From Patescibacteria group bacterium (lineage in GTDB: Bacteria; Patescibacteriota; Minisyncoccia; Phycocordibacterales; JBBTRF01), in NCBI GenBank assembly GCA_038065315.1, contig JBBTRF010000001.1, positions 1 through 33,641 on the forward strand: a stretch of 33,641 bases of DNA, written 5' to 3'. Position numbers and translations under genes: made by a program. How positions within the stretch are numbered: position 1 is the stretch's first letter; the number at the start of each line of letters is the position of its first letter. Shown here in pieces: positions 12,837 to 28,460 of this stretch. The notes beneath the pieces are model-generated. The model was not told where the DNA came from. It saw only the letters and a list, made by a program, of their open reading frames with translations, and made no database searches.

Positions 12837-14147
12837 ATGAAACCAACGGCTATCAATCATATGAATACTCTCCGAACACCCCGCACCCTTTTTAGCGCTT
12901 TTCTCGTGGCTATGCTGGCCATCCTCGTTTTTTCAGCTTCGCCAACAAAAGCGCAGGCCTTCGGGTTCGATAATGTGGTTGATTTTTTCAATCCATCCGG
13001 CTTTGGTGTGCCGACCTTTCCAGATCCAATCGATATTTTTGTAAACATCCCAATGGACCCAGTCGTCGAGACCAAGGGTTCAAGCGACATTACCCATGAG
13101 TCTGCACATATTCACGGCTACGTGAACCCAAACGGTTCTCCTGAGACGTGGTCATTTTTCGAATGGGGCCCAACTGCTGGTCTTGGTTTTACCACCGGTA
13201 CCTTGGCGATACCTGTGCCTTCTGATACTGATTTTACTTTGGTGAATCTTACTCCAAGCACCACTTACTACTACCGAACCGTCGGCAAGAATTCTATTTT
13301 TACTGAACGCGGACCAATCAACAGCTTCACCACGCTCGCGGCGCCTGTCGTCGTGCCTGCTGGCGGTCCGACACCGCTCGTTCTCGGCTCTTGTGCTTCT
13401 GCTCCCGCATCACCACTCACCGGCAATACTGTCACTTGGTCTATGAGTGCAGCTCCGACTGGTGGCACTGGCGCGTACACCTATGCATGGACCGGCACCG
13501 ACGGCCTCACTGGCACTGGCGCGACGGCTTCTATGGTCTACTCGATCGTCGGCTCAAAAGCCGCATCGGTCACTGTCACTTCTGGTGCACAGACACTCAC
13601 CGTCGCTTGTGCGGCAACGACTGTGGCCAACAACCCAAGCCCAGTTGCTTTGACCGCGACTATCGCCGCGAATCCTTCGAGCACCGGTATCGGCGGCACT
13701 ATTTCATGGACCGTCACTCCAGCTGGCGGCGTCGGCGGCTACGTCTATTCATGGTCCGGTACCGACAGCTTGTCCGGCACCACTCAGACCGTTTCTCATA
13801 CCTACTACACTCCAGGCACTGTTACTGGTACGGTGATCGTCACCTCCGGTGCGCAGACCGTGACGGTGAGTACGACTGCGACTATCACTAGTACTCCAGT
13901 CACCACTGGCGGCGGGGGAGGCGGATGTAGCGGCGGTTGCGGCGGTGGTGCGAATCCTCCAACAGTCGTCTTGTCTGATACCCGACAGGTGCCGTCCTCG
14001 ACCCTTGCTTCCGCTGCTTTTGTATACTTGAATCAGGTGCCATATACTGGCATCGAGGACTACATTGCCTCTATCCTCTTCTTGCTTGGCCTCGTCGCCG
14101 TATCTTTTGGCGGTTCGTGGTATTTCGTGTTTCGGAAGGCAAACTAA
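12837..14147 (+). CDS. Surface protein with sorting signal, probable sortase substrate
   Basis: Residues ~10-42 form a signal peptide ending near KAQAFG. Next come an Fn3-like domain (ESAHIHGYVNPNGS ... TPSTTYYYRTVG ... FTTL), then two PKD/Ig-like repeats of ~85 residues (TWSMSAAPTGGTGAYTYAW... and SWTVTPAGGVGGYVYSW...). A Gly/Cys-rich hinge (GGGGGGCSGGCGGG) follows. The last 40 residues have the architecture of a sorting signal: QVPYTG, a hydrophobic stretch and a basic end RKAN. VPYTG is a variant of LPXTG. The protein probably projects from the cell wall and binds other cells or matrix; the ligand is unknown. ATG 12837 is preferred to an adjacent GTG at 12834. Confidence 0.78.
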   Translation: MKPTAINHMNTLRTPRTLFSAFLVAMLAILVFSASPTKAQAFGFDNVVDFFNPSGFGVPTFPDPIDIFVNIPMDPVVETKGSSDITHESAHIHGYVNPNGSPETWSFFEWGPTAGLGFTTGTLAIPVPSDTDFTLVNLTPSTTYYYRTVGKNSIFTERGPINSFTTLAAPVVVPAGGPTPLVLGSCASAPASPLTGNTVTWSMSAAPTGGTGAYTYAWTGTDGLTGTGATASMVYSIVGSKAASVTVTSGAQTLTVACAATTVANNPSPVALTATIAANPSSTGIGGTISWTVTPAGGVGGYVYSWSGTDSLSGTTQTVSHTYYTPGTVTGTVIVTSGAQTVTVSTTATITSTPVTTGGGGGGCSGGCGGGANPPTVVLSDTRQVPSSTLASAAFVYLNQVPYTGIEDYIASILFLLGLVAVSFGGSWYFVFRKAN

Positions 14148-14170
14148 TTCTCGATCGCGTCACAAAAGGA

Positions 14171-15022
14171 CTATCTCCGGTCTTTTAGGTGTTGTGCATT
14201 AAACTGAATCGCATCGAGGAAGTCGTCCCGATGTGCTTCTCTTAGCTGGTCTGCGGTAATATTTTTTTCGGCAATAATCTTCTCGGCAATAGCAAGAGAG
14301 TGTCCATACACGTCGGCTAATTTTTGTTGCCCGACAGACGCTGCATACTCTCCGTACGCCTTGAGTTGGAGACGAATTTCCTCCAAAATCTTCACCTGAG
14401 CCGGATGTTCTGCCAGAGCCTTCCGATCCTTTTTTGTCCACGCCTTGATCATGCTGAACAAGGTCGGACGATCTACTGCGACTACGACATGCGGAACAAG
14501 ACTCTTTTCGCCCTTGAAGTTGCCGGCGTCTGTGGCGAAGTATTTTATTTTTGTAAGCTCCCCCGCATCGATCGATCCTTTGATATCCTTAAACTTATCG
14601 CCAAAGCGTCCGCTTACCGTGACGTCCATGGCGAGCGCTAGGTGGGAAGTGGCGGTCTCACTCTCTTCAATTTCTACGATGCAGTCTACGCCGTTCACAA
14701 AGTCGTCATAGTCTGCGGGTTGAATTGTCGTAGCATTTTCTCCAAGCCAATTACTTTGCTCGATCTGCTCGAACAGAATCGCCTCGAAAATCTTTCCAAG
14801 ATGCTGTGCTTCTCGCTCTGCCGCTGTCATGTTTCTATTCGCTACCTCGAATTGCTTTTTCAGGTACTCTACGTGTGCTTGATCTTTTTCCCAATCTCGG
14901 TAGTTGGGGAAATCCCGGAGCTGAATAGGCGAAGATAGTACTTTCAGGGCTTGTTGATACGCCAATTCAATCTCTCGCGGACTCATCAACTCTTCACCGT
15001 CGAATCTTTCAAATTGACTCAT
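14171..15022 (-). CDS. Conserved hypothetical protein, possible PD-(D/E)XK-like fold
   Basis: A soluble 283-residue protein with charged helices at both ends. The middle holds a possible PD-(D/E)XK arrangement: a helix with Glu (LGKIFEAILFEQIEQ), DYDDFVNGVDCIVEIEE, then LALAMDVTVSG and lysines. This is a weak pattern match, and the function is not known to me. It begins 13 nt after the thrS stop on the same strand, so it is probably cotranscribed with thrS and would fall under the same T-box control. The pairing may be accidental, or may hint at a tRNA- or translation-linked role. Confidence 0.55.
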   Translation of the reverse strand: MSQFERFDGEELMSPREIELAYQQALKVLSSPIQLRDFPNYRDWEKDQAHVEYLKKQFEVANRNMTAAEREAQHLGKIFEAILFEQIEQSNWLGENATTIQPADYDDFVNGVDCIVEIEESETATSHLALAMDVTVSGRFGDKFKDIKGSIDAGELTKIKYFATDAGNFKGEKSLVPHVVVAVDRPTLFSMIKAWTKKDRKALAEHPAQVKILEEIRLQLKAYGEYAASVGQQKLADVYGHSLAIAEKIIAEKNITADQLREAHRDDFLDAIQFNAQHLKDRR

Positions 15023-17508: not shown

Positions 17509-19443
17509 TCAGCCTTTGGTCGGAACCTCGATCAGGGTTCGAATCGAAGCGAGGTCTGTAAGGATGTTTCCACCCCTGGTGACGTGTAGCGTGATCACCT
17601 TATGGCTATTGATGATCGTCGTATGGTCTCTTCCGCCAAGGAAGGCTCCGATTTCTGTCCAGTGCATTTTCAGATCTTCCCTGAGCAGGTAGGCGGCGAT
17701 GTGACGAGCCCAGGCGATCGTAGCTTTCCCCCTCCCCTCGGCTCTTATCTTCTCTGGGGTTGTTCCGTAAGCCTTACTGACTACCGCGAGGATCTTTTCC
17801 ATCCTCTCTATCGGCAACAGGACTTCTGCTTTTTGGATTATCGCCCGAGGGATGTTCGTCTCCATTTCGACAGACTCGACTTCTTCGGGGCCAAGAGGTT
17901 TGGTTGCTTCTTCGTGAGCCTGCCATGTGGCTAGTGCAGGTAGGTCGGCCAGGCTATTGAGGGGCATTTGTTCGCCGACGAGCTTGTCGAATTCGTCGAC
18001 TCGACTCACTGCGGCCATGATCTGTTCATCTCTCGCCTCAATTCCAACTTCTCGGAGCGCCTTTATTGTCTCGGCGATCCTAAAGCGAATCCTTTCTCTG
18101 CTGACGCCGTATCGCTGGCCGAGGTCCTCCAAGGTCACGCCTTCCGATGTGCCGTCGAGACCATAGTAGGCTATGAAAGACTCTCGATCTCGTATCGACA
18201 AAGGGAGTTGGTCGAGTGCTGTAAACAGCCGCTGAATTGAAGCTTGCGCTTCTTCTCGCGACTCCTTCATCTCCAGAAACATGTCCGGAGGAACGGCGCT
18301 TTCGTTTTTGAGAATGTCGCCAAACACTATTTCCCTTCCGCCTCTTGCAGAATTACCCACGACACTTTCAAGTGAGGCGATCGCCGAGGTGCCGGCGCTG
18401 ACAAGTTTCTGGACGTGTTTCGGAGCTAGGCCGGACTTCTCCGCGATCTCCTCGATGGTTGGGGTGCGGTGCAGTTCCGCGGTCAATGCCTCGATCGCTT
18501 TCCATACTTTTACTCTACCGTCCACCACATGTTGCGGTAGTCTGATCATCGGAGCTGTCTCCGTGGTGACTCTCGTTATGTAGTTCCGTATCCACCACGT
18601 AGCATAGGTAGAGAAGTGGTTGCCGCGACGGTAGTCGAATTTCTCGACGGCCCTCATTAGGCCGATATTGCCGGCTTGCACGAGATCGTCGAAGTCGACC
18701 CCTCGTCCTTGGTAGTGCGAGGCAATCTTGAGAACAAGTCTCATGTTGTGGCAGACCATGATTTCAAAGGCACCTTGGTCTTTCTCCTCCTGGAATTTTC
18801 GAGCGAATTCCAGCATCTCCTGATGGGGGATGAGCGGGTAAGATTCAACGGCTCTGTAGTAGGAGTTTCGTTCATCTTTGACGCCCTTGATCGGGACAGC
18901 CTCTTCGTCACCATCCATTTCAGACTCTTCGACCTCATCCAAGACAGCACCGTCGGGTTCCTGGTCTATCTCCTCTTCTCTCTCCAGCTCAGCGTTTTCT
19001 GTGGGAAGGTTGCCAAATTCCTCGTTTTTTCCGTGCGTCGGTCGGAGAACCATATCATTCGAACGGGTTTTCCGTTTTTTGACTGGCATGTCGCCGCTAA
19101 TGTCTGCCGGCAGTTTCAAGCCTAGCTTTGAGAGCAGTGAGTCGGGATTTTGTCCCTCATGGATGTGGGTGTGCACATGTTGGTGCACGTGGGTGTGGGT
19201 TACTGAGACTTCCACCTTGATATCGGCGCTCTTGAGGATCTCAATGAGTGCCGCGAAGGCCTGTGTGAATTTATCCCGATTCCTAAGGAAGGCAACCGGG
19301 AATAAGGAAGCGATTTCGGAAGGCGAGATTGAACCTCGCTGAGAAGCCTCACGAAGCGTCTGCTGTGCTCCGGAGCTGAATTGACAATCTTGCAAAGTGC
19401 CACCCCTCAAGAAAGGGGACACGGTTTCGTTGGGTGTTGCCAT
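17509..19443 (-). CDS. Sigma-70-like factor fused to DnaA domain IV
   Basis: The 644-residue protein has (positions from ATG 19443) a His-rich stretch THTHVHQHVHTHIH at ~82-95, an acidic low-complexity linker (~150-190), and sigma region 2 at ~230-300 (MRLVLKIASHYQGRGVDFDDLVQAGNIGLMRAVEKFDYRRG, then FSTYATWWIRNYITR). Region 3 lies at ~315-365 and region 4 at ~410-470 (VTLEDLGQRYGVSRERIRFR). The last ~90 residues are a DnaA C-terminal domain: YGTTPEKIRAEGRGKATIAWARHIAAYLL and the box-recognition signature GGRDHTTIINSHKVI. It has no AAA+ ATPase. It may direct RNA polymerase to promoters next to DnaA boxes, or link replication and transcription; that is inference. A TTG start at 19482 is possible. 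It is divergent from the helicase gene. Confidence 0.85.
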   Translation of the reverse strand: MATPNETVSPFLRGGTLQDCQFSSGAQQTLREASQRGSISPSEIASLFPVAFLRNRDKFTQAFAALIEILKSADIKVEVSVTHTHVHQHVHTHIHEGQNPDSLLSKLGLKLPADISGDMPVKKRKTRSNDMVLRPTHGKNEEFGNLPTENAELEREEEIDQEPDGAVLDEVEESEMDGDEEAVPIKGVKDERNSYYRAVESYPLIPHQEMLEFARKFQEEKDQGAFEIMVCHNMRLVLKIASHYQGRGVDFDDLVQAGNIGLMRAVEKFDYRRGNHFSTYATWWIRNYITRVTTETAPMIRLPQHVVDGRVKVWKAIEALTAELHRTPTIEEIAEKSGLAPKHVQKLVSAGTSAIASLESVVGNSARGGREIVFGDILKNESAVPPDMFLEMKESREEAQASIQRLFTALDQLPLSIRDRESFIAYYGLDGTSEGVTLEDLGQRYGVSRERIRFRIAETIKALREVGIEARDEQIMAAVSRVDEFDKLVGEQMPLNSLADLPALATWQAHEEATKPLGPEEVESVEMETNIPRAIIQKAEVLLPIERMEKILAVVSKAYGTTPEKIRAEGRGKATIAWARHIAAYLLREDLKMHWTEIGAFLGGRDHTTIINSHKVITLHVTRGGNILTDLASIRTLIEVPTKG

Positions 19444-19496
19444 ATGTTCAATTGGTAAAGGTCGCTGTTGTACTTTTTTCAAATTACCACAATAAT

Positions 19497-19542
19497 TTTA
19501 TATTGTCTAATATTTGACATGCATTGCCATAATGTGCTAAAA
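19497..19542. promoter_or_regulatory. Divergent promoters of the sigma-DnaA and helicase 1 genes
   Basis: Minus strand: TATAAA (19502-19497) with no clear -35, start near 19490. Plus strand: perfect TTGACA (19514-19519) followed after 18 nt by TAAAAA (19538-19543). The intergenic region is AT-rich. Confidence 0.5.
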
Positions 19543-19608
19543 AGTGAGCAGAGCTTTTTGTAAATTTCAGCCACATCATCAGAAGCTCCAACCAGAAAGG
19601 AACCCTCT

Positions 19609-21690
19609 ATGTTCTCGCCGTTCGAGTATCAGGCGGAGTGTTGCGGAAAGATTTCCGAAGCACGCGCTGCGGGGGCCAACAAAGCTCTCGTGGTAATGGC
19701 AAGCGGTCTCGGTAAGACTGTAACCTCGGCATTCGATGTCCAAAAATGGTTTGCCGATCAGGGACGCGGTCGCTTGTTATATCTCTGTCATCAAAACGAG
19801 ATTCTTCATCAGGCGAGTGCGACATTTCAAAGTGTCCTCGGTCCAGACTATCGCTTCGGTCTCTTCAATGGTCATGAAAAGAGGATTCATCAGGCAGACT
19901 GTGTCTTTGCATCGCTTCGGACAGTTCTAAAGCATGGCAGGGATGTGTTCAGGCCCAATGAGTTCGATTACGTAGTCGTCGATGAGAGCCATCATACTCC
20001 TGCGCCGACCTATCTCAGTGCTGTCCAGTTCTTCACGCCAAAATTTCTCTTGGGTCTGACAGCAACGCCAGATCGCCGTGACGGATTAAGTATTCGAAGT
20101 GTCTATGGTAACGAGGTCTATTACCTCCCTTTGGAAGAGGCGCTTAGCAGAGGCTTGCTCACCCCGGTCGATTATCGACTTGTGACGGATGATATTTCTG
20201 TCGGAGACGTAAAGACCAGGGACGGATTGACTGTCGACGATCTCGACGAGCAGGTATTCGTTCCCAAACAGGATAGGGAAGTCGCTTCCGTCATTCTTCG
20301 TCACGCGAAGGAACTTACGGAACCGAGGACGATCGTCTTTGCAAACTCGATAGCCCACGCCGACAGGATCTCCAAACTGCTGCCTGAAAGCGTAACCATC
20401 CACTCGAAGGTGTCTGCCAAGGAACGAATGGTGCGTCTCGAGCTCTTCCGTCTTGGTTTGGTTCAGACTGTGGTCACTGTCGACTGCTTCAACGAGGGTG
20501 TCGATATTCCACAGGCAAATCTGATCGTCTTCTTGCGCTCGACGGCATCGCTCACGATTTTCTTCCAGCAACTGGGAAGGGGACTTCGCCGCTACGAGGG
20601 CAAGGAAAAAGTCAGGGTGCTTGATTTCGTCGGCAACTGCAAACGGATCATGATGCTCAAGGAATTATCAGATGTCACTCAAAGACGTGAGAGGACCCGG
20701 CTGTCTAAGCCGTTGGGTCCGCGATCGGTCAAGGACATTGCAGGTGTCGAAAAGACGAACTTCGGTGGTCTCGGGATCTCCTTCGACGAGAAGACTCTCG
20801 AGGTTCTCGATATCGTGAAGCGTGTCCGTCCAAACCGGATCTCGGACAACGAACTCTTATTCAACGAATATTCGCCTCGCAACGCGTTGGCCGCATCCCA
20901 TCTCTCTGCCAAGACCTGGCGAGAAGTGTGGTGGGTCTGCGATGTCTGCAAACACGAATACAAGATGAGCGCAGCATTGCGTCTGTCTGGTAAGAGTTGC
21001 CCCGCCTGTGCAGACCGAGTCACGGAAGACAATAGTTTGCTGGTGTTGCAGCCGGCACTTGCTAGAGAGTATTCCATAAAGAACCCACTTGCTTCCTGGC
21101 AGATAAAGGCAACTTCGCCGGAAGTATTCTGGTGGCAGTGTCGGACCTGCCAGTTTGAATGGCGGGGCAGAGCCCGTAGTCGTGTGCATCGTGGTGATGG
21201 TTGCCCTGCTTGCGCAGGACAAATGCCGCAATACCAGAACAATCTGGCACTGAAGTTTCCTGAGATCGCTGCCGAATATTCCGACGTCAACATGTTGTCG
21301 CCTGAACACGTCGGTTGTCACAGTCGTCCGCTTCGGTGGTGGATCTGTGGATCTTGCGGGAAAAGCTGGCAGACAAGTGCTGACATGCGAACACGGTACG
21401 GCCTAAGGTGTGCAAACTGTGTGCCTAAGATCGTCTCGGTTGGTCAAGGTCAAAAACCTTCAGCACCGCAAACAAACATCATCATCGAACATCCTCATTT
21501 GGCAGAAGAGTATGCCTCTCGCAACCGTATTCCGGTCGAAGAAGCTTTGGTAAGATCGCCAGATCCGTTGTGGTGGCTTTGTTTTGATTGCGGCCGCTAC
21601 TGGCAAGCCAGTGTCCGACAACGCCTCGAAGGTGCTCGCTGCGTCCTTTGTCATCCGACCACCTCTGTTGAGGTGGAAGTAATCGTGTAA
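19609..21690 (+). CDS. SF2 helicase with C-terminal zinc-ribbon repeats
   Basis: The 693-residue protein has an SF2 (ResIII/DEAH-like) motor: Walker A ASGLGKT (~30-36), VVVDESHH (DExH, ~125), LTATP, and motif VI QQLGRGLRR (~325). From ~410 there are four repeats of ~60 residues, each with WWxC-x2-C and a second C-x2-C pair: CDVCKHE...CPAC, CRTCQFE...CPAC, CGSCGKS...CANC and CFDCGRY...CVLC. They resemble DUF4379/treble-clef zinc ribbons (HPxLAxEYsxxN...). The array is likely to bind nucleic acid or guide a nuclease; none is encoded here. AAAGGAA lies 6 nt before the ATG. The neighbour at 21837 is a paralog with a different array. Confidence 0.88.
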   Translation: MFSPFEYQAECCGKISEARAAGANKALVVMASGLGKTVTSAFDVQKWFADQGRGRLLYLCHQNEILHQASATFQSVLGPDYRFGLFNGHEKRIHQADCVFASLRTVLKHGRDVFRPNEFDYVVVDESHHTPAPTYLSAVQFFTPKFLLGLTATPDRRDGLSIRSVYGNEVYYLPLEEALSRGLLTPVDYRLVTDDISVGDVKTRDGLTVDDLDEQVFVPKQDREVASVILRHAKELTEPRTIVFANSIAHADRISKLLPESVTIHSKVSAKERMVRLELFRLGLVQTVVTVDCFNEGVDIPQANLIVFLRSTASLTIFFQQLGRGLRRYEGKEKVRVLDFVGNCKRIMMLKELSDVTQRRERTRLSKPLGPRSVKDIAGVEKTNFGGLGISFDEKTLEVLDIVKRVRPNRISDNELLFNEYSPRNALAASHLSAKTWREVWWVCDVCKHEYKMSAALRLSGKSCPACADRVTEDNSLLVLQPALAREYSIKNPLASWQIKATSPEVFWWQCRTCQFEWRGRARSRVHRGDGCPACAGQMPQYQNNLALKFPEIAAEYSDVNMLSPEHVGCHSRPLRWWICGSCGKSWQTSADMRTRYGLRCANCVPKIVSVGQGQKPSAPQTNIIIEHPHLAEEYASRNRIPVEEALVRSPDPLWWLCFDCGRYWQASVRQRLEGARCVLCHPTTSVEVEVIV

Positions 21691-21694
21691 CTCC

Positions 21695-21729
21695 AACCCC
21701 TTGCGGCTTCGTGCCGCAAGGGGTTCTTT
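21695..21729 (+). terminator. Terminator of helicase 1
   Basis: AACCCCTTGCGGC, loop TTCGT, GCCGCAAGGGGTT and CTTTATT: a 13-bp stem directly after the stop codon. Confidence 0.9.
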
Positions 21730-21742
21730 ATTGCCACAAACA

Positions 21743-21771
21743 TTGACATTATACATTTTTTATTTTACTAT
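21743..21771 (+). promoter_or_regulatory. Promoter of helicase 2
   Basis: TTGACA (21743-21748), a 17-nt spacer and TACTAT (21766-21771). Start near 21778, leader ~59 nt. The leader resembles that of helicase 1 (ATTTCAGCCA... and a purine-rich site before ATG), supporting duplication of the whole unit. Confidence 0.65.
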
Positions 21772-21836
21772 CGAATTTGGTTCAGCTATTTAACATTTCA
21801 GCCAACTCAATCAACCCTCAACCCAAGAGAGTCCCT

Positions 21837-23834
21837 ATGATCCAGCCCTATTGGTATCAGGAAGATGGCCTCAAAGCCATCCAGCGCGCTCGACAAAAAG
21901 GCGCTGTGGCAGCCCTCGTGGTCATGGCCAGCGGTCTCGGTAAAACTGTCACAGGAGCATTCGATTGTCTCCGCTTTCGGAAGATGCATCCTAAGGCCAG
22001 GGTGCTCTACCTCTGCCATCAGAACAACATTCTTCAGCAGGCTCGAACCACTTTCGAGGTGATTCACGGTAACGAATGCTCCTTTGGTTTCTATCATGGG
22101 ACGAAAAAAGACCTCGACAAAGTCGATTTCCTTTTCGCTTCACTACAGACGATGCGGAAGCAGAGAAAGAGCTTTCGTCCTGATGAGTTCGATTACGTCA
22201 TCATTGATGAAAGTCATCGGACCAGTGCCGACACGTATCTGGACGTCGTTGAGTATTGGAAGCCGAAATTCCTACTCGGAATGACAGCGACACCCAATCG
22301 CACCGACGGCCAGGATATTCGAAAAGTGTTTGGCCGGGAAGTCTTCTACTTACCTCTTGAAGAGGCGCTCGCTCAGGGATTGCTCGCTCCAGTCGATTAC
22401 CGACTTCTGACGGACGAGATTCAGCTCAAGCGGGTCATCGAAGCACCCGGCCACCGCCTCAGTTTGGCAATGCTCAACCGAAAGGTCTTTGTCGCTAAAC
22501 GTGACGAAGAGATCATTTCGCTGATTCAGAAACATATCCGAGCAGTCATCGATCCAAGATCGATTGTCTTCTGTGAGTCCATCGAGTATTGCGACCGCTT
22601 GTCCCGGCTCATGCCGAACAGTATAGCGATCCATTCGAAGGTGTCTTTCAGAGAGCGAGTCATTCGTCTCGAGATGTTTCGTCAAGGAGTGATTCCGACA
22701 TTATTGGTCGTTGATGTGTTTAACGAGGGCATCGATATTCCGAAAGCGAATGTCCTTGTGTTCCTGCGCTCTACGTCATCGCCGATTGTGCTGTTTCAAC
22801 AACTCGGCCGTGGCTTGCGGCTCAGCGAGGGAAAGACAGGTGTGCTGGTGCTCGACTTCGTCGGCAACTGCGAACGAGTGAAGACCATCTACACCCTTTG
22901 GCAGGATGTTGCGACTAGACGTCAACACTTCTTGGCAAGGCCGCCGACCGGTCCAAAAGCCGAGAAGCTAGCAGTGAGAAGGCAGACCGAACCGTTTCTG
23001 TTGAATGTGGACCATGTTCACTTCCAGGAAAAAGCAGTTCAGATTACCGAGCTTGTTCGTCGAATTACTGAAGGATACACACGAGACGAGATGGTCGCAC
23101 TGCTCAAGGGTTTCGCTGCGAAGCTCGGCCGCTCGCCGACACAGGTTGAAGTGCAGGGCAACAAAGAAATGCCGAGCGGTGCTGCGTTGAGTAACGAATT
23201 CGGTAATTTCTCTAATGCACTTCTGGCCGCGGGACTTGCCGTAAATCAGATGCTCAACGTGTCCGACGAAATCCTTCTTGAGCAATTACGAGTCTTGAGA
23301 GACGAGCTCGGCCGATCGCCGACTCAAAAGGATATCGCTGCTGGTTCAAAGGCCGGTAGGTGTTCGTGCGAACCGGTGTTCCGGAGTCATTTCGGTTCCC
23401 TAGGGGCCGCACTTGAGAAGATTGATGCAAAGCCAACAAAGTATGTCGGTTTAGGGAAGCCTGCACTCATTAAACAGCTTCAAGCCTTGCACACTGAGAA
23501 TGGAAGAACTCCATCCGTAGACGATGTTATACAAGCGTCCGCGGACCACAAAACAGCCAGCCCTAACGTCTTTCGCCAAGCCTTTGGTTCTTGGAGTCAT
23601 GCGCTCCTTGCAGCTGGTCTGGTAGAGAAGGCTAAAAAACCGAAACGGTATTCGGAAGCCGACCTTATCAGCCAGCTCCAGAAGGCTAAGATGATCTTGG
23701 GACGACGGCCTTCTTGCGGCGACATTGAGCGCTTACGCAAACAGGGTCAGTTGTCGGCAAGCGTAGGGGCCTTCTGTGGACGCTTCGGCTCCTTCACTGA
23801 GGCGCTTATAAGGCTTGCTCAGGCCGATGGTTGA
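21837..23834 (+). CDS. SF2 helicase with C-terminal HNH-associated repeats
   Basis: A paralog of the preceding gene with the same motor (Walker A ASGLGKT, VIIDESHR, MTATPNR, FQQLGRGLRLSEG), about 665 residues from ATG 21837. A TTG at 21777 precedes the transcription start and is rejected. The C-terminus is different: four ~55-residue repeats, each with LGRSPT/GRTPS/GRRPS and ending FGSxxxALxxAGL, from residue ~420 to the end. They match the homing-endonuclease-associated repeat pattern (HNH_repeat), which is thought to bind DNA. No HNH catalytic motif is seen. The shared motor with exchanged binding arrays suggests two helicases working on different DNA features, perhaps in defence or repair; this is inference. 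Confidence 0.87.
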   Translation: MIQPYWYQEDGLKAIQRARQKGAVAALVVMASGLGKTVTGAFDCLRFRKMHPKARVLYLCHQNNILQQARTTFEVIHGNECSFGFYHGTKKDLDKVDFLFASLQTMRKQRKSFRPDEFDYVIIDESHRTSADTYLDVVEYWKPKFLLGMTATPNRTDGQDIRKVFGREVFYLPLEEALAQGLLAPVDYRLLTDEIQLKRVIEAPGHRLSLAMLNRKVFVAKRDEEIISLIQKHIRAVIDPRSIVFCESIEYCDRLSRLMPNSIAIHSKVSFRERVIRLEMFRQGVIPTLLVVDVFNEGIDIPKANVLVFLRSTSSPIVLFQQLGRGLRLSEGKTGVLVLDFVGNCERVKTIYTLWQDVATRRQHFLARPPTGPKAEKLAVRRQTEPFLLNVDHVHFQEKAVQITELVRRITEGYTRDEMVALLKGFAAKLGRSPTQVEVQGNKEMPSGAALSNEFGNFSNALLAAGLAVNQMLNVSDEILLEQLRVLRDELGRSPTQKDIAAGSKAGRCSCEPVFRSHFGSLGAALEKIDAKPTKYVGLGKPALIKQLQALHTENGRTPSVDDVIQASADHKTASPNVFRQAFGSWSHALLAAGLVEKAKKPKRYSEADLISQLQKAKMILGRRPSCGDIERLRKQGQLSASVGAFCGRFGSFTEALIRLAQADG

Positions 23835-23921: not shown

Positions 23922-26900
23922 CTATACGAGGGCCTTCACCTTCTCCACTAGCAAGCTCACTTCGCCGTTGCGGTGAGAGACTTTTCCTTTGATCGCGATG
24001 CATTTTTCGAGCACGATGAGGGATTTGAATTCGATGAGCGTTCGGGGAAACACCACCGCCTCCATCGAGCCGGACAGGTCGGCGATCTTCATGAACACCA
24101 TTTGCTCGCCCTTCTTCGTGGCGATAGGGCGCATCTCTTCGATGATGCCCGCGACCACCACGATCGTGCCTTCTTTGCCTTCCTCGCGAATCTTTTTCAC
24201 ATTCACATCGCGCTTCTCGAGGATGTCGCGATATTTGTCGAGCGGGTGGCCGGAGACGTAGAGACCGAGAAGCTCTTTTTCCCACGCGAGGCGGTCGGTC
24301 ATGGGAGCGGCCGGCACGGGCGCGAGCTTCAGAGTGGCACCGCTGCCGGCCGCAGCACCCGAAAGGCCGCCAAACAGAGAGTCTTGGTTTGCCGACGCTT
24401 TCGCCAATTCTTTGTTGTACATGAGCAAGGTCTCAATGTTGGCGAGCATTACGCCGCGTTCGCCGAGCTCGTCGAGTGCTCCGGCCTTGATCAGCGCTTC
24501 GAGCGTTTTCTTGTTCACATTTTTGTCCTTCACACGCTCCAAAAAATTGCTGAGCGAAGTGAATCGGCCGGCACGCTTCCGCTCCTCGATGATCGCGGTC
24601 GCCGCGCCTTGGCCGAAATTTTTGATCGTCACCAACCCGAAACGGATGCGATCTTTTTCGCTTTTCTCTGCACCTTTCACAATGGTGAATTGGCTGAAGC
24701 TTTCATTCACCGACGGCGGCAACACAGGGATGCCCATACGTTTGCATTCGGTGATCGTTTCGCCGATTTTTTCAACGTCGCCGGAGTCGGCGGTGAGCAC
24801 GGCCGACATATAGATGGCGGGGAAATTGGCCTTCATGTATGCCGTTTGGTATGCGACACGGCCGTATGACGCTGCGTGCGAGTTGTGTACGATGATATCG
24901 TTCGCCACAAAATTGTGATGGACGGGCATACTGATGTCGTACGTCATTTCTTTTCCGGCAGGAAGGATCGACACGACCTCGTCCCAGTAGATATCCGATT
25001 GCGAGTGGTTCAGTATATCCGGAGAGGCTAGTACGTTACCCATCCGTGTCAACACTTCACGTTGGTAGCCGATCTTTTTTGCATCATATGAAAATAACCT
25101 CTCTGCAAGCCCTGTCTGATAAGCCGCTTCACGAACAGTTATCTTTTGTTCACACATGACAGACCTTACTAGATTCATCACTGCGGCCGGGATGACATCT
25201 TTCGTTCCGCGTGCAGCAATGGTTGCGATCAAATTGCATTGACGAAGCAGGTCGATAAGCAGTCGTTTCTTCTTGTCTATCAAATGTGTGCCGATCGTTT
25301 CTCCAAAGCGTGCCAGGTTTTCTCGATGACAGATTGTTACGTTATAACCTATTTTAATTCCGCCTCGATAGTTGAACTTTTTTCGATGAATAGTGCTCGT
25401 TATCTCAAAACGAACAAGAAGATGCTGCACGTCTCGGGCAAGTTGAATTGAGCTGGTGGAATAAAATACTTGCTGGTTTTGTGGGCTCACACAGCCATCT
25501 CCCTGCCACATTTTGCCAAGCAGGAGTGCTTGAGTTTCCTTTTTCCACCGGAAGACTTCTCTGGGAATTGACTTTTCGGTAGCTTTTTTCCCAGTCAGCT
25601 CGAGGCGGATAAGCCATTTTTGAAGAGAGTTCCCCAGTCTCTGATTCTTCTGCCCACAGTACACAGATGCTGCCGGTTTGCTTCGGTCAATCGTGAACTT
25701 GCTGTTCTCGAACTGTTGTGCATGAAAAATAAAATCGCTGATTTCATCTTCCTGCGTTGAGTAGTAGTAAGGTCCATGCGGATGACAAAGATTTCCTTCA
25801 GCGATAAGATAGCCAAGCGTCGCCGCTCGGTAAGCTGGGATCTCTAAGCCACTTTTAACTGATAGTTTCCTAGGTATCGCAATTCGCTCGCCAATCTCTA
25901 GTGTTCCTAGATTTTTCCATCCATTAAATGTCAAAAATGGGTGGTTGTCGGTTGCGCGAATGCTGCGGCCAGTGCGGGTCTTGAGTTCGAATATATTTTT
26001 GACACCGTTCTGTAGCACTGCTGATATTTTTTGAGGTACCAGTTTTTTGGTTTCATTCAAAGAATGGAGCGAGATGTGTTTGTCGCTCTCATATAATTCT
26101 TTCACGGTGAACATCGCACCACTTTTTGCGTCGGTAATTCGTGTGTCGCCTGTCACGCATTTGTTGAAACCGTAGGCGGCGAATGGTTCAATGAGGGTCC
26201 AGAGCTCCTTTGCTGTGTCCTCTTTCATCCCGTTTTTTACCAAACCCGCGATGAGTTTCCCCTTCTGCTCCTCCATTTCTTTCGGAATCTTTTTGCCCAT
26301 CGCCTTTCGGAGCTTATCGGCCTCGAGCCACGAGTAGCCACCGAGCTTGATCGCTGTGAGCATGACGTCGTCCTGGTAGGTGATCACACCGTACGAGCGG
26401 TCCAAAATATCTTTTAGGCGCGGGTCAAGGTATCGAATCTTTGAATGGTCGTGTTTGCGCTCGATATAGTCTGGAATTTTTTCCATCGGACCCGGTCGGT
26501 ACAAAGCCACCATCGCATTGATGTCGTGGATGGTCGAAGGCTTTAGATCTTTGAGGAAGCGCGTCATGCCGGAGCCGTTGAGCTGGAAGAGGCCGATGGT
26601 CTCGCCGCGGGCGAGCATTTCAAATGTTTTTTTGTTAGTGACGTCGACGTTCTCAATGTCGACAGTGACGCCTTCGATTTTTTTCACACGATCCACCGCA
26701 TCGGCGAGGATGGAAAGGTTTTTGATACCGAGGAAGTCGAATTTAAGCAGGCCCATACCATCTTCGCCGACGCCATGCATGTCGTATTGAGTGATGATTT
26801 TGTCTTCGCCCTTGGTATCGTACTGGAGGGGTACGTATTCAGTGAGGGGTTGCGGGCCGATCACCACGCCAGCAGCATGTACGGAGATGTGGCGGGCACA

Positions 26901-28460
26901 GCCTTCGATCTTTTTCGCCATCTCGATAATCTGCTTCGTGTCATCGTCTTCTTTGTACAGCTTTTTGAGCTCGGGCACTTCGTCGAGTGCGCGGTCGATG
27001 GTCATTGGGAAGCCTTGGGCGCCCATCGGGATGAGTTTGGAAATCTTGTCGCCGACTTCATAGCCGAAACCCATCGCACGGGCGACATCTCGTACTGCTC
27101 CGCGCGCCATCATTGTACCGAATGTGCCGATCTGTGCGACGTGATCTTTACCGTATTTTTTGCGGGCATATTCGATCACCTCGTCGCGACGGTTGTCGGC
27201 GTAGTCCATATCGATATCGGGCGCGGAGGGTCGCTCAGGGTTGAGGAATCGTTCGAAGGGGAGCTTGTATTCGAGCGGATCTACATTTGTGATGTGTGCG
27301 AGATAGGTCACGAGTGATCCTGCAACCGAACCTCGAATCGTGGTGAGAATATTGTTTTCATGCGCAAAACGGAGCAGATCGGACACCACGAGGAAATATT
27401 GTGCGTAGCCTTTGTCCTTGATGACCTTGAGTTCGTATTCGAGACGTTGGAACATCTCTGGTGTCTCAGCGATGTCGCGTGTCTTAATGCCTTCGTAGGC
27501 AAGGAACCTGAGCTCATCGTCGTATGAGCGCCCGCTCTCCACGATGTAGTTCGGGAACAGCCATTTGCCGAGGGTGAGGTCGAGGTTGCACATTGCTGCG
27601 ATCTTGGCGGTGTTGGCGAGCGCTTCGGCGCCAATCGCAGCATCTTTTTTGAACAACTTCTCCATCTTCTTGGTCGTCATGAAAGAGAAGTCGGTGTCGT
27701 CGGCGCCGAGGCCGCCATTGCCACCGCGATCGCCACCGTCACCGGAACTGTTTACCATCATCAAAGTGTTGCGCGCCTGTTTGTCGTCGGGAGAGATATA
27801 ATAAATATCGTGTGCGGCCACGAGTGGGGTGTTGGTCGCTTTGGCGATGGCGATGATGTGTTCCATCAGTGCCTCGTGTCCTTCAATACCGGTGTGGTGA
27901 GTGATTTCGAGGAAGACATTTTCTGCGCCGTAGGTGGTTTTGTAGAAAGCGATAATCTCGCGAGCTTTTTCCTGTGCCTCCGGTGCTTCTGGACCCGCCG
28001 CGCCGCGCAATGCCGCCGCCACTTCGCCTCCGAGGGACGGGATGATACACACCAGCCCGGCGGGGTATTGTGAGATGAGCTCGCGATCGAGCCGCGGCTT
28101 GTAATAGAAGCCGTCAAAGTGGGAGATAGTCACCAGCTTCACCAGGCTCTTGTAGCCGGCGTGGTCCTTCGCCAGGAGTATTAGGCGGGTGCGTCGATTG
28201 TCCACGCCGGCCTGCTTGTCTTTGCGCGAGCGCGCCGCAATGTACGCGTGCACTCCGATGATCGGCTTGATGCCGGCCTTTTTGCAATCTTTGTAAAATT
28301 CGATGGCACCATACAAGCTGCCATTGTCGGTGAGGGCGATCGCCGTCATACCGTCTTCCTTGGCTGCCTCGATGAGGTCCGGAATTTTTGGCAGCGCCGC
28401 CAATAGGGAATAGTGGCTGTGGACGTTTAGGTGGACAAAATTATTTGGCTGGGTGGACAT
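23922..28460 (-). CDS. dnaE: DNA polymerase III alpha subunit with in-frame intein
   Basis: The replicative polymerase, 1512 codons, of which 426 are an intein, leaving 1086 residues, a normal size. The N-terminal PHP domain starts HLNVHSHYSLLAALPKIPDLIEAA. The polymerase core has PDIDMDYADNRRDEVIEYARKKYG with the metal-binding aspartates. The intein interrupts the core at AYGFNK / SHAASYG, a highly conserved site. A helix-hairpin-helix region and a C-terminal OB domain follow (VVVAGIIEEMRPIATKKGEQMVFMKIADLSGSMEAVVFP). No separate proofreading exonuclease is encoded here. A start near 28500 gives a leader of ~40 nt. It is convergent with helicase 2. Confidence 0.96.
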   Translation of the reverse strand: MSTQPNNFVHLNVHSHYSLLAALPKIPDLIEAAKEDGMTAIALTDNGSLYGAIEFYKDCKKAGIKPIIGVHAYIAARSRKDKQAGVDNRRTRLILLAKDHAGYKSLVKLVTISHFDGFYYKPRLDRELISQYPAGLVCIIPSLGGEVAAALRGAAGPEAPEAQEKAREIIAFYKTTYGAENVFLEITHHTGIEGHEALMEHIIAIAKATNTPLVAAHDIYYISPDDKQARNTLMMVNSSGDGGDRGGNGGLGADDTDFSFMTTKKMEKLFKKDAAIGAEALANTAKIAAMCNLDLTLGKWLFPNYIVESGRSYDDELRFLAYEGIKTRDIAETPEMFQRLEYELKVIKDKGYAQYFLVVSDLLRFAHENNILTTIRGSVAGSLVTYLAHITNVDPLEYKLPFERFLNPERPSAPDIDMDYADNRRDEVIEYARKKYGKDHVAQIGTFGTMMARGAVRDVARAMGFGYEVGDKISKLIPMGAQGFPMTIDRALDEVPELKKLYKEDDDTKQIIEMAKKIEGCARHISVHAAGVVIGPQPLTEYVPLQYDTKGEDKIITQYDMHGVGEDGMGLLKFDFLGIKNLSILADAVDRVKKIEGVTVDIENVDVTNKKTFEMLARGETIGLFQLNGSGMTRFLKDLKPSTIHDINAMVALYRPGPMEKIPDYIERKHDHSKIRYLDPRLKDILDRSYGVITYQDDVMLTAIKLGGYSWLEADKLRKAMGKKIPKEMEEQKGKLIAGLVKNGMKEDTAKELWTLIEPFAAYGFNKCVTGDTRITDAKSGAMFTVKELYESDKHISLHSLNETKKLVPQKISAVLQNGVKNIFELKTRTGRSIRATDNHPFLTFNGWKNLGTLEIGERIAIPRKLSVKSGLEIPAYRAATLGYLIAEGNLCHPHGPYYYSTQEDEISDFIFHAQQFENSKFTIDRSKPAASVYCGQKNQRLGNSLQKWLIRLELTGKKATEKSIPREVFRWKKETQALLLGKMWQGDGCVSPQNQQVFYSTSSIQLARDVQHLLVRFEITSTIHRKKFNYRGGIKIGYNVTICHRENLARFGETIGTHLIDKKKRLLIDLLRQCNLIATIAARGTKDVIPAAVMNLVRSVMCEQKITVREAAYQTGLAERLFSYDAKKIGYQREVLTRMGNVLASPDILNHSQSDIYWDEVVSILPAGKEMTYDISMPVHHNFVANDIIVHNSHAASYGRVAYQTAYMKANFPAIYMSAVLTADSGDVEKIGETITECKRMGIPVLPPSVNESFSQFTIVKGAEKSEKDRIRFGLVTIKNFGQGAATAIIEERKRAGRFTSLSNFLERVKDKNVNKKTLEALIKAGALDELGERGVMLANIETLLMYNKELAKASANQDSLFGGLSGAAAGSGATLKLAPVPAAPMTDRLAWEKELLGLYVSGHPLDKYRDILEKRDVNVKKIREEGKEGTIVVVAGIIEEMRPIATKKGEQMVFMKIADLSGSMEAVVFPRTLIEFKSLIVLEKCIAIKGKVSHRNGEVSLLVEKVKALV
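24882..26159 (-). mobile_element. DnaE intein with LAGLIDADG endonuclease domain
   Basis: The 426-residue intein is residues 768-1193 of the precursor. It begins with Cys (CVTGDTRI), block B is TDNHPFLT-like (RATDNHPFLTFNGW), and it ends VHHNFVANDIIVHN followed by extein Ser, as needed for protein splicing. Two LAGLIDADG-type helices are visible: LGYLIAEGN and LGKMWQGDG. Both acidic residues are present (E, D), so the homing nuclease may be active. The C-extein +1 residue is Ser and the flanks are GFNK and SHAASYG. Confidence 0.93.

Follow-up and report, generated by a model that had tools for sequence, protein, structure and literature searches.

The MZA defence system associates a sigma-70 gene (MzaA) with a helicase-type ATPase, and nuclease-dead Cas12f works with a partner sigma factor in RNA-guided transcription. 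For the restriction enzyme SauUSI, the published account gives a layout of nuclease, superfamily 2 (SF2) translocase and reader (PMC7913695). Here we describe a locus in a 33,641-nucleotide stretch of DNA from a Patescibacteria group bacterium (assembly GCA_038065315.1, contig JBBTRF010000001.1, positions 1 to 33,641; hereafter the window), in which two tandem genes, helicase A and helicase B, pair an SF2 motor with different repeat arrays and lie beside a gene for a sigma-70 factor that ends in DnaA domain IV (sigma-DnaA). Both proteins resemble SauUSI (a type IV restriction enzyme, PDB 7CLG) in having an SF2 motor of the same subgroup and a putative C-terminal target reader, but SauUSI has a PLD nuclease at its N-terminus and reads its target with an SRA domain, whereas A and B have no nuclease and would read theirs with a repeat array; in this family a sigma factor is the partner, placed N-terminally or encoded next door. 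Because a sigma factor stands where SauUSI has its nuclease, we propose target-directed translocation coupled to RNA polymerase. We see an even chance that the locus encodes an accessory array-motor module linked to sigma, that is, an array-targeted DNA translocase working with RNA polymerase through sigma.

A first-pass annotation of the window had described tandem helicases with a common motor, exchanged arrays and no nuclease, and the domain content bears this out. Helicase A (19609..21690, + strand; 693 aa) comprises an SF2 motor (residues ~1-403) and four DUF4379 treble-clef repeats (Pfam E = 6.4e-38), and helicase B (21837..23834, + strand; 665 aa counted from the ATG at 21837) a motor (~1-407) and four HNH_repeat units (E = 3.9e-44), both arrays scoring far over the cut-off. 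The motors share 50% identity across 412 aa (E = 1e-136), both contain ResIII and Helicase_C by Pfam, and alignment shows intact GxGKT, DESH, TATP and QQLGRGLR helicase motifs in each; the C-termini are unrelated in sequence, and Pfam finds no nuclease family in either protein. Both reading frames lie where they had been listed, but the TTG given as the start of B (21777) probably lies upstream of the true one; the alignment with homologues begins at the ATG at 21837 (MIQPYWYQ), downstream of the leader, and this ATG is the probable start. AlphaFold models (mean predicted local distance difference test score 79 for B and 77 for A, from input alignments of 9 and 7 sequences, respectively) place a helicase core, a low-confidence linker and then four repeated units in both proteins, modelled as bundles of short helices in B and as small beta/helix zinc-ribbon-like units in A. 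Searched with Foldseek, both models retrieve SauUSI first, followed by RadD, HsdR and XPB/TFIIH, and by sequence the closest solved relative of B is again SauUSI (7clg, E = 1.4e-54). Matches to mREase_IV (1.8e-54 and 5e-57) cover the motor only, and the PLD nuclease and SRA domain of SauUSI-type enzymes are absent from A and B in Pfam. Nor do the proteins belong to type I HsdR, as they reach 102.3 and 117.3 bits against a cut-off of 550 (EcoAI model) and have no nuclease family.

Repeat arrays have been exchanged on this motor repeatedly. A and B are the only strong motor homologues in the window's genome (794 kb, three contigs), and the motor is patchily distributed, occurring in 6/197 genomes of the order and 7/383 of the class (E = 1e-60) and in 11/379 of the phylum (profile, E = 1e-90), samples that overlap and each take in the window's own genome; in further samples it was found in 1/3, 1/10 and 1/16 genomes, each time solely the genome already known. 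DUF4379 arrays occur in window A, L004A, G022, G200, G673 and G885, HNH_repeat arrays in window B, G156, G586, G621 and G822, and INT_rpt arrays in L004B, G173, G548, G218, G263 and, by motif, G034 (assigned by motif and alignment from one unit that Pfam did not list), while a protein of G494 mixes INT_rpt with DUF4379; numbers of INT_rpt repeats are by motif, fewer stretches being significant by Pfam. On a motor tree built without L131, array type changes at least five times among 17 single-type rows. A second tandem twin (L004, contig JAUYPY010000047.1) illustrates such a change. Window A and the first L004 motor are sisters (100/99), each with DUF4379, as are window B and the second L004 motor (100/97), where the arrays differ: HNH_repeat in the window and INT_rpt in L004. 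Given this pairing, the tandem pair most simply predates the divergence of these genomes, and in the B slot the array would have been replaced.

Within one genus, arrays have also diverged much faster than motors. In G218 and G263, which belong to one genus and share the same locus, the motors show 86.7% identity across 406 aa but the arrays only 45-53%, with five units against three; ten other matched genes are 60-98% identical, nine of them at 88% or more (88-98%) and one at 60%, a paralogous sigma match at 35% having been set aside. Judged from these sequences, such divergence is the behaviour of specificity domains. Together with the repeated changes on the motor tree, it lends good support to the modular target recognition that the first-pass annotation had suggested. 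More distant motors (L132 in G808, L133 in G771 and L047 on a viral contig) carry C-terminal arrays resembling helix-turn-helix or HNH_repeat units and have no sigma neighbour, so SF2 motors with arrays extend beyond the sigma-linked clade.

The second recurrent feature is the sigma factor. Sigma-DnaA (17509..19482, - strand) diverges from helicase A across 126 bp. Among genomes chosen by motor alone, a sigma-70 gene is next to (6) or fused with (2) the motor gene in 8/13 with usable context, a count in which G263 and G218 (same genus and arrangement) enter once, and which excludes G522, G645 and G885 (contig end, one readable flank), L004 (contig end) and the more distant motors of G008, G808, G771 and G739. 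The pair is divergent in the window, G173 and G200 and co-directional in G621, where sigma lies downstream of the motor; in G218 (with G263) and G673 the motor adjoins the housekeeping rpoD. In G034 (796 aa) and G586 (1026 aa), sigma, motor and array form a single protein, with gap-free sequence at the junction, and the two fusions fall in different parts of the motor tree. With 2-6 sigma genes per genome and ~1 gene per kb, chance adjacency is ~0.9% per genome; under random placement, the probability of at least 8/13 is 3e-14, and that of at least 6/13 (dedicated sigmas, without the rpoD cases) is 6e-10. None of the four distant motors with flanks (L022, L132, L133 and L134) has a sigma neighbour, and among the best 80 viral-contig motor loci listed, none has a sigma adjacent to or fused with a related motor and four have any sigma-like open reading frame (ORF) in the flank. 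In G771 an ORF ~1.8 kb away was read by eye as an extracytoplasmic function sigma; no search confirmed it.

Relatives of G200 suggest that sigma and motor move as a unit. In G381, of the same genus, the genes that flank the G200 motor and sigma abut directly (88-92% identity), leaving an empty site, and the pair is likewise absent from G332 (same genus) and G229 (same family); this amounts to one gain or loss of sigma and motor together. The suggestion that the neighbouring sigma gene matters thus gains more support than the first-pass annotation could draw on, as divergent, co-directional and fused pairs recur in distant lineages and the cassette is missing as a unit from relatives. Adjacency or fusion in 8/13 genomes, including two fusions, and an empty site are what a protein-array-guided transcription module would be expected to leave. 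In both G173 (L018) and G200 (L023) the cassette is flanked by alaS and mnmA regions, but its orientation with respect to them is reversed between the two, suggesting either a common insertion spot or an inversion; alaS was identified by Pfam in G173, and the other alaS and mnmA names were read from sequence.

The empty site in this sister genome, patchy presence and a gene with an rve integrase core adjoining the G034 fusion could also mark a selfish or mobile-element remnant, with arrays derived from homing endonucleases or integrases (for which HNH_repeat and INT_rpt are named) and a cassette that hitchhikes without host function. Yet Pfam detects no HNH, GIY-YIG, LAGLIDADG or integrase domain in A or B, so neither has the catalytic domain of a homing endonuclease with associated repeats; motors with intact motifs are conserved across distant classes, and the sigma partner is retained. 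We consider such a remnant improbable. A phage or plasmid origin was rejected: phage and plasmid records match at <60% identity, none covers at least 80% of A (phages), B (plasmids) or the G586 fusion (phages and plasmids), and the best viral-contig motor is 37% identical among the matches listed.

A stronger competitor is a nuclease-free defence module, in which the array-motor recognises invading DNA and translocates on it, blocking replication or recruiting other enzymes, and sigma merely regulates its expression. The motor is nearest to restriction motors, the arrays change fast, akin to specificity subunits, the distribution is patchy, and the divergent arrangement is of a kind common for regulators. 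An AIPR gene also lies near the mixed-array motor of G494 (L025), as does a gene read by eye as a serine recombinase, making a defence or mobile setting possible there. Mere expression control is, however, hard to reconcile with a sigma-motor fusion in one polypeptide; PADLOC matches are at the motor or sigma level only, none extending over a whole protein; and core genes surround both the window locus and that of G200. The flanks of the window locus, for which the first-pass annotation had suggested a possible role in defence or DNA maintenance, are not a defence island: they hold a class II aminoacyl-tRNA synthetase gene, which we take to be thrS, and dnaE (23922-28460, - strand, 1512 aa), whose product bears an intein (Intein_splicing and LAGLIDADG_3). 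Array turnover suggests antagonism, and the core-gene surroundings suggest a resident function. On balance we regard a defence role with sigma as regulator alone as unlikely, although it deserves more weight than the selfish-element explanation.

Region 2.2 of sigma-70 proteins binds RNA polymerase, the melting aromatics act in promoter opening and further residues read the -10 element. Sigma-DnaA is a member of this family with Sigma70_r2 (1.9e-20), Sigma70_r3 (1.3e-8), Sigma70_r4 (2.4e-8) and Bac_DnaA_C (7.3e-18) in Pfam, and keeps the core motifs of regions 2.2, 2.3 and 4, including the melting aromatics. Most linked sigmas likewise retain region 2.2 and the melting aromatics; their -10 reader positions are fully or almost fully conserved in the fused (G034, G586) and G200 proteins, whereas the window, G173 and G548 sigmas deviate from RpoD at them. 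On a sigma tree the linked factors occupy very long branches and group weakly. Searched from the sigma side, 2/197 genomes of the order have a match at E = 1e-45, both with the motor, which we do not treat as strong support, since housekeeping sigmas score almost as high. Sigma-DnaA also keeps a GGRDHTTI stretch, which we liken to the DnaA-box-binding signature. DnaA boxes beside the genes were rejected as a target, as TTWTNCACA occurs three times in the window against 1.7 expected, and nowhere at the locus.

MZA resembles the locus in combining a sigma-70 and a helicase-type ATPase, but no other MZA genes were seen next door and the window sigma scores 193.5 bits against the MzaA equivalog cut-off of 800, a generic sigma similarity. 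Dead Cas12f with its sigma resembles it in concept, a DNA-targeting module delivering sigma, although targeting there uses a guide RNA and here would use protein arrays and an ATP motor.

Several loci tie sigma and motor together in other ways. In G621 the two proteins end in a common 67-aa C-terminal domain (60% identity, E = 6e-22); the motor-sigma pair of this locus (L128) is followed co-directionally by a 401-aa gene without a Pfam family (13467-14672), which may be a third component. Between the L004 twins lies a gene ending in sigma region 4, at 18.2 bits under the Pfam cut-off of 24.1 and at 27.7 bits with a profile of the sigmas collected in this analysis. The G548 locus (L026, 7211-15081) comprises an INT_rpt motor, an RNase III gene, a sigma without a Pfam region-4 match, a second SF2 helicase whose C-terminal repeat is of another kind, and, as a protein of its own, a 169-aa DnaA domain IV. 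Its parts list of two SF2 motors, sigma and DnaA domain IV matches that of the window, where sigma and the DnaA domain are fused.

Several observations weigh against a sigma-linked transcription module. Five of the 13 genomes (G156, G022, G494, G822 and G548) lack an immediate sigma neighbour, the first four having none within the flanks read and G548 having one RNase III gene between motor and sigma; no sigma lies in the sole readable flank of G522 (L024), G645 (L131) or G885 (L135), which makes the count 8/16 over all partial contexts. Adjacency to rpoD in G218/G263 and G673 may be chance or reflect an insertion site, and the probabilities given above treat lineages as independent, while the three divergent pairs (G000, G173 and G200) fall in one clade. 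Region 2.2 of the G621 sigma is atypical. Solved DUF4379 relatives sit in kinetoplastid mitoribosome proteins, so the arrays could bind RNA. Finally, A and B each have a promoter-like site of their own and need not be co-expressed as an operon.

Members without a sigma neighbour, and the presence of RadD and XPB among the nearest solved relatives, are what ordinary RadD/XPB-like repair helicases with decorative tails and coincidental sigma neighbours would show. RadD (YejH) has the same SF2 core, mostly at 23-27% identity over ~365-384 aligned columns, but A and B score 101.2 and 93.1 bits against 720 for the RadD equivalog (NF053632), and we know of no repeat array or sigma link in RadD. Given these low scores and the sigma link, with its adjacency, fusions and cassette-like gain or loss, we reject this reading, already disfavoured, as the best one and think it very improbable. 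Scattered homologues with no association, named at the outset as the pattern that would point to repair helicases, are not what is seen, since the sigma link recurs; it is nevertheless true that homologues are patchy and most are single, not twinned. XPB/TFIIH has a similar motor fold and works at RNA polymerase II promoters, offering an analogy for a promoter-linked translocase, but its sequence similarity is remote, and here there are no TFIIH partners and transcription is sigma-based.

In the sigma-linked module that we favour, each helicase would be an ATP-driven translocase, probably on double-stranded DNA, of SauUSI/HsdR/RadD/XPB type. Its C-terminal repeat array would read a DNA target and dock the motor there, ATP-driven movement or remodelling would follow, and the partner sigma, as effector in place of the SauUSI nuclease, would bring or retarget RNA polymerase to the docked site and so switch transcription of the targeted DNA. 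We infer that the arrays bind specific DNA sequences, that the motors translocate and that physical contact with RNA polymerase is made, and likewise in which direction transcription is affected. With two motors and different arrays, the window would supply two targets for one sigma-DnaA, and binding of DnaA boxes may come in through the DnaA domain of that factor. The outcome would be a host regulon, or silencing or misfiring of invading DNA. That the family forms a protein-programmed transcription or anti-element machine, in which swappable arrays pick the site, the translocase acts and a dedicated or fused sigma recruits RNA polymerase, is a tentative idea that we place somewhat below an even chance.

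The noncoding sequences around the two genes are also partly alike. The 126-bp stretch (19483..19608) that separates the divergent sigma-DnaA and helicase A genes contains TTGACA and the TTTCAGCCA leader; between A and B lie an intrinsic terminator (21695..21725, + strand, 13-bp stem) and then a promoter-like TTGACA-17-TACTAT with a B leader resembling that of A (21743..21836, + strand). The similar leader noted in the first-pass annotation is real but modest: a local match of ~50 bp, in which TTTCAGCCA lies ~40 bp upstream of each ATG; TTGACA is at -95/-94 of the A and B starts. The score of the match was reached in 14/2000 Markov resamples and 0/297 other window segments, and TTTCAGCCA occurs in the window at these two leaders only. 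A special promoter common to the linked genes was rejected, as the sites seen are of the ordinary TTGACA type.

Our searches of an open-access library gave no description of the sigma-linked array-motor combination. We rate the parts as known families and their combination as new in architecture, and we hold the mechanism with moderate confidence. Ordinarily, only promoter sequence guides a sigma factor; if our reading is true, a translocase that carries exchangeable DNA-reading arrays and is joined to a sigma factor would aim transcription in a new way and would be a bacterial counterpart of a DNA-guided promoter-opening motor whose specificity is altered by array exchange. The arrays may be reprogrammable, and the poorly studied DUF4379, HNH_repeat and INT_rpt families would gain a testable role in common, that of target readers that can be swapped on one motor.

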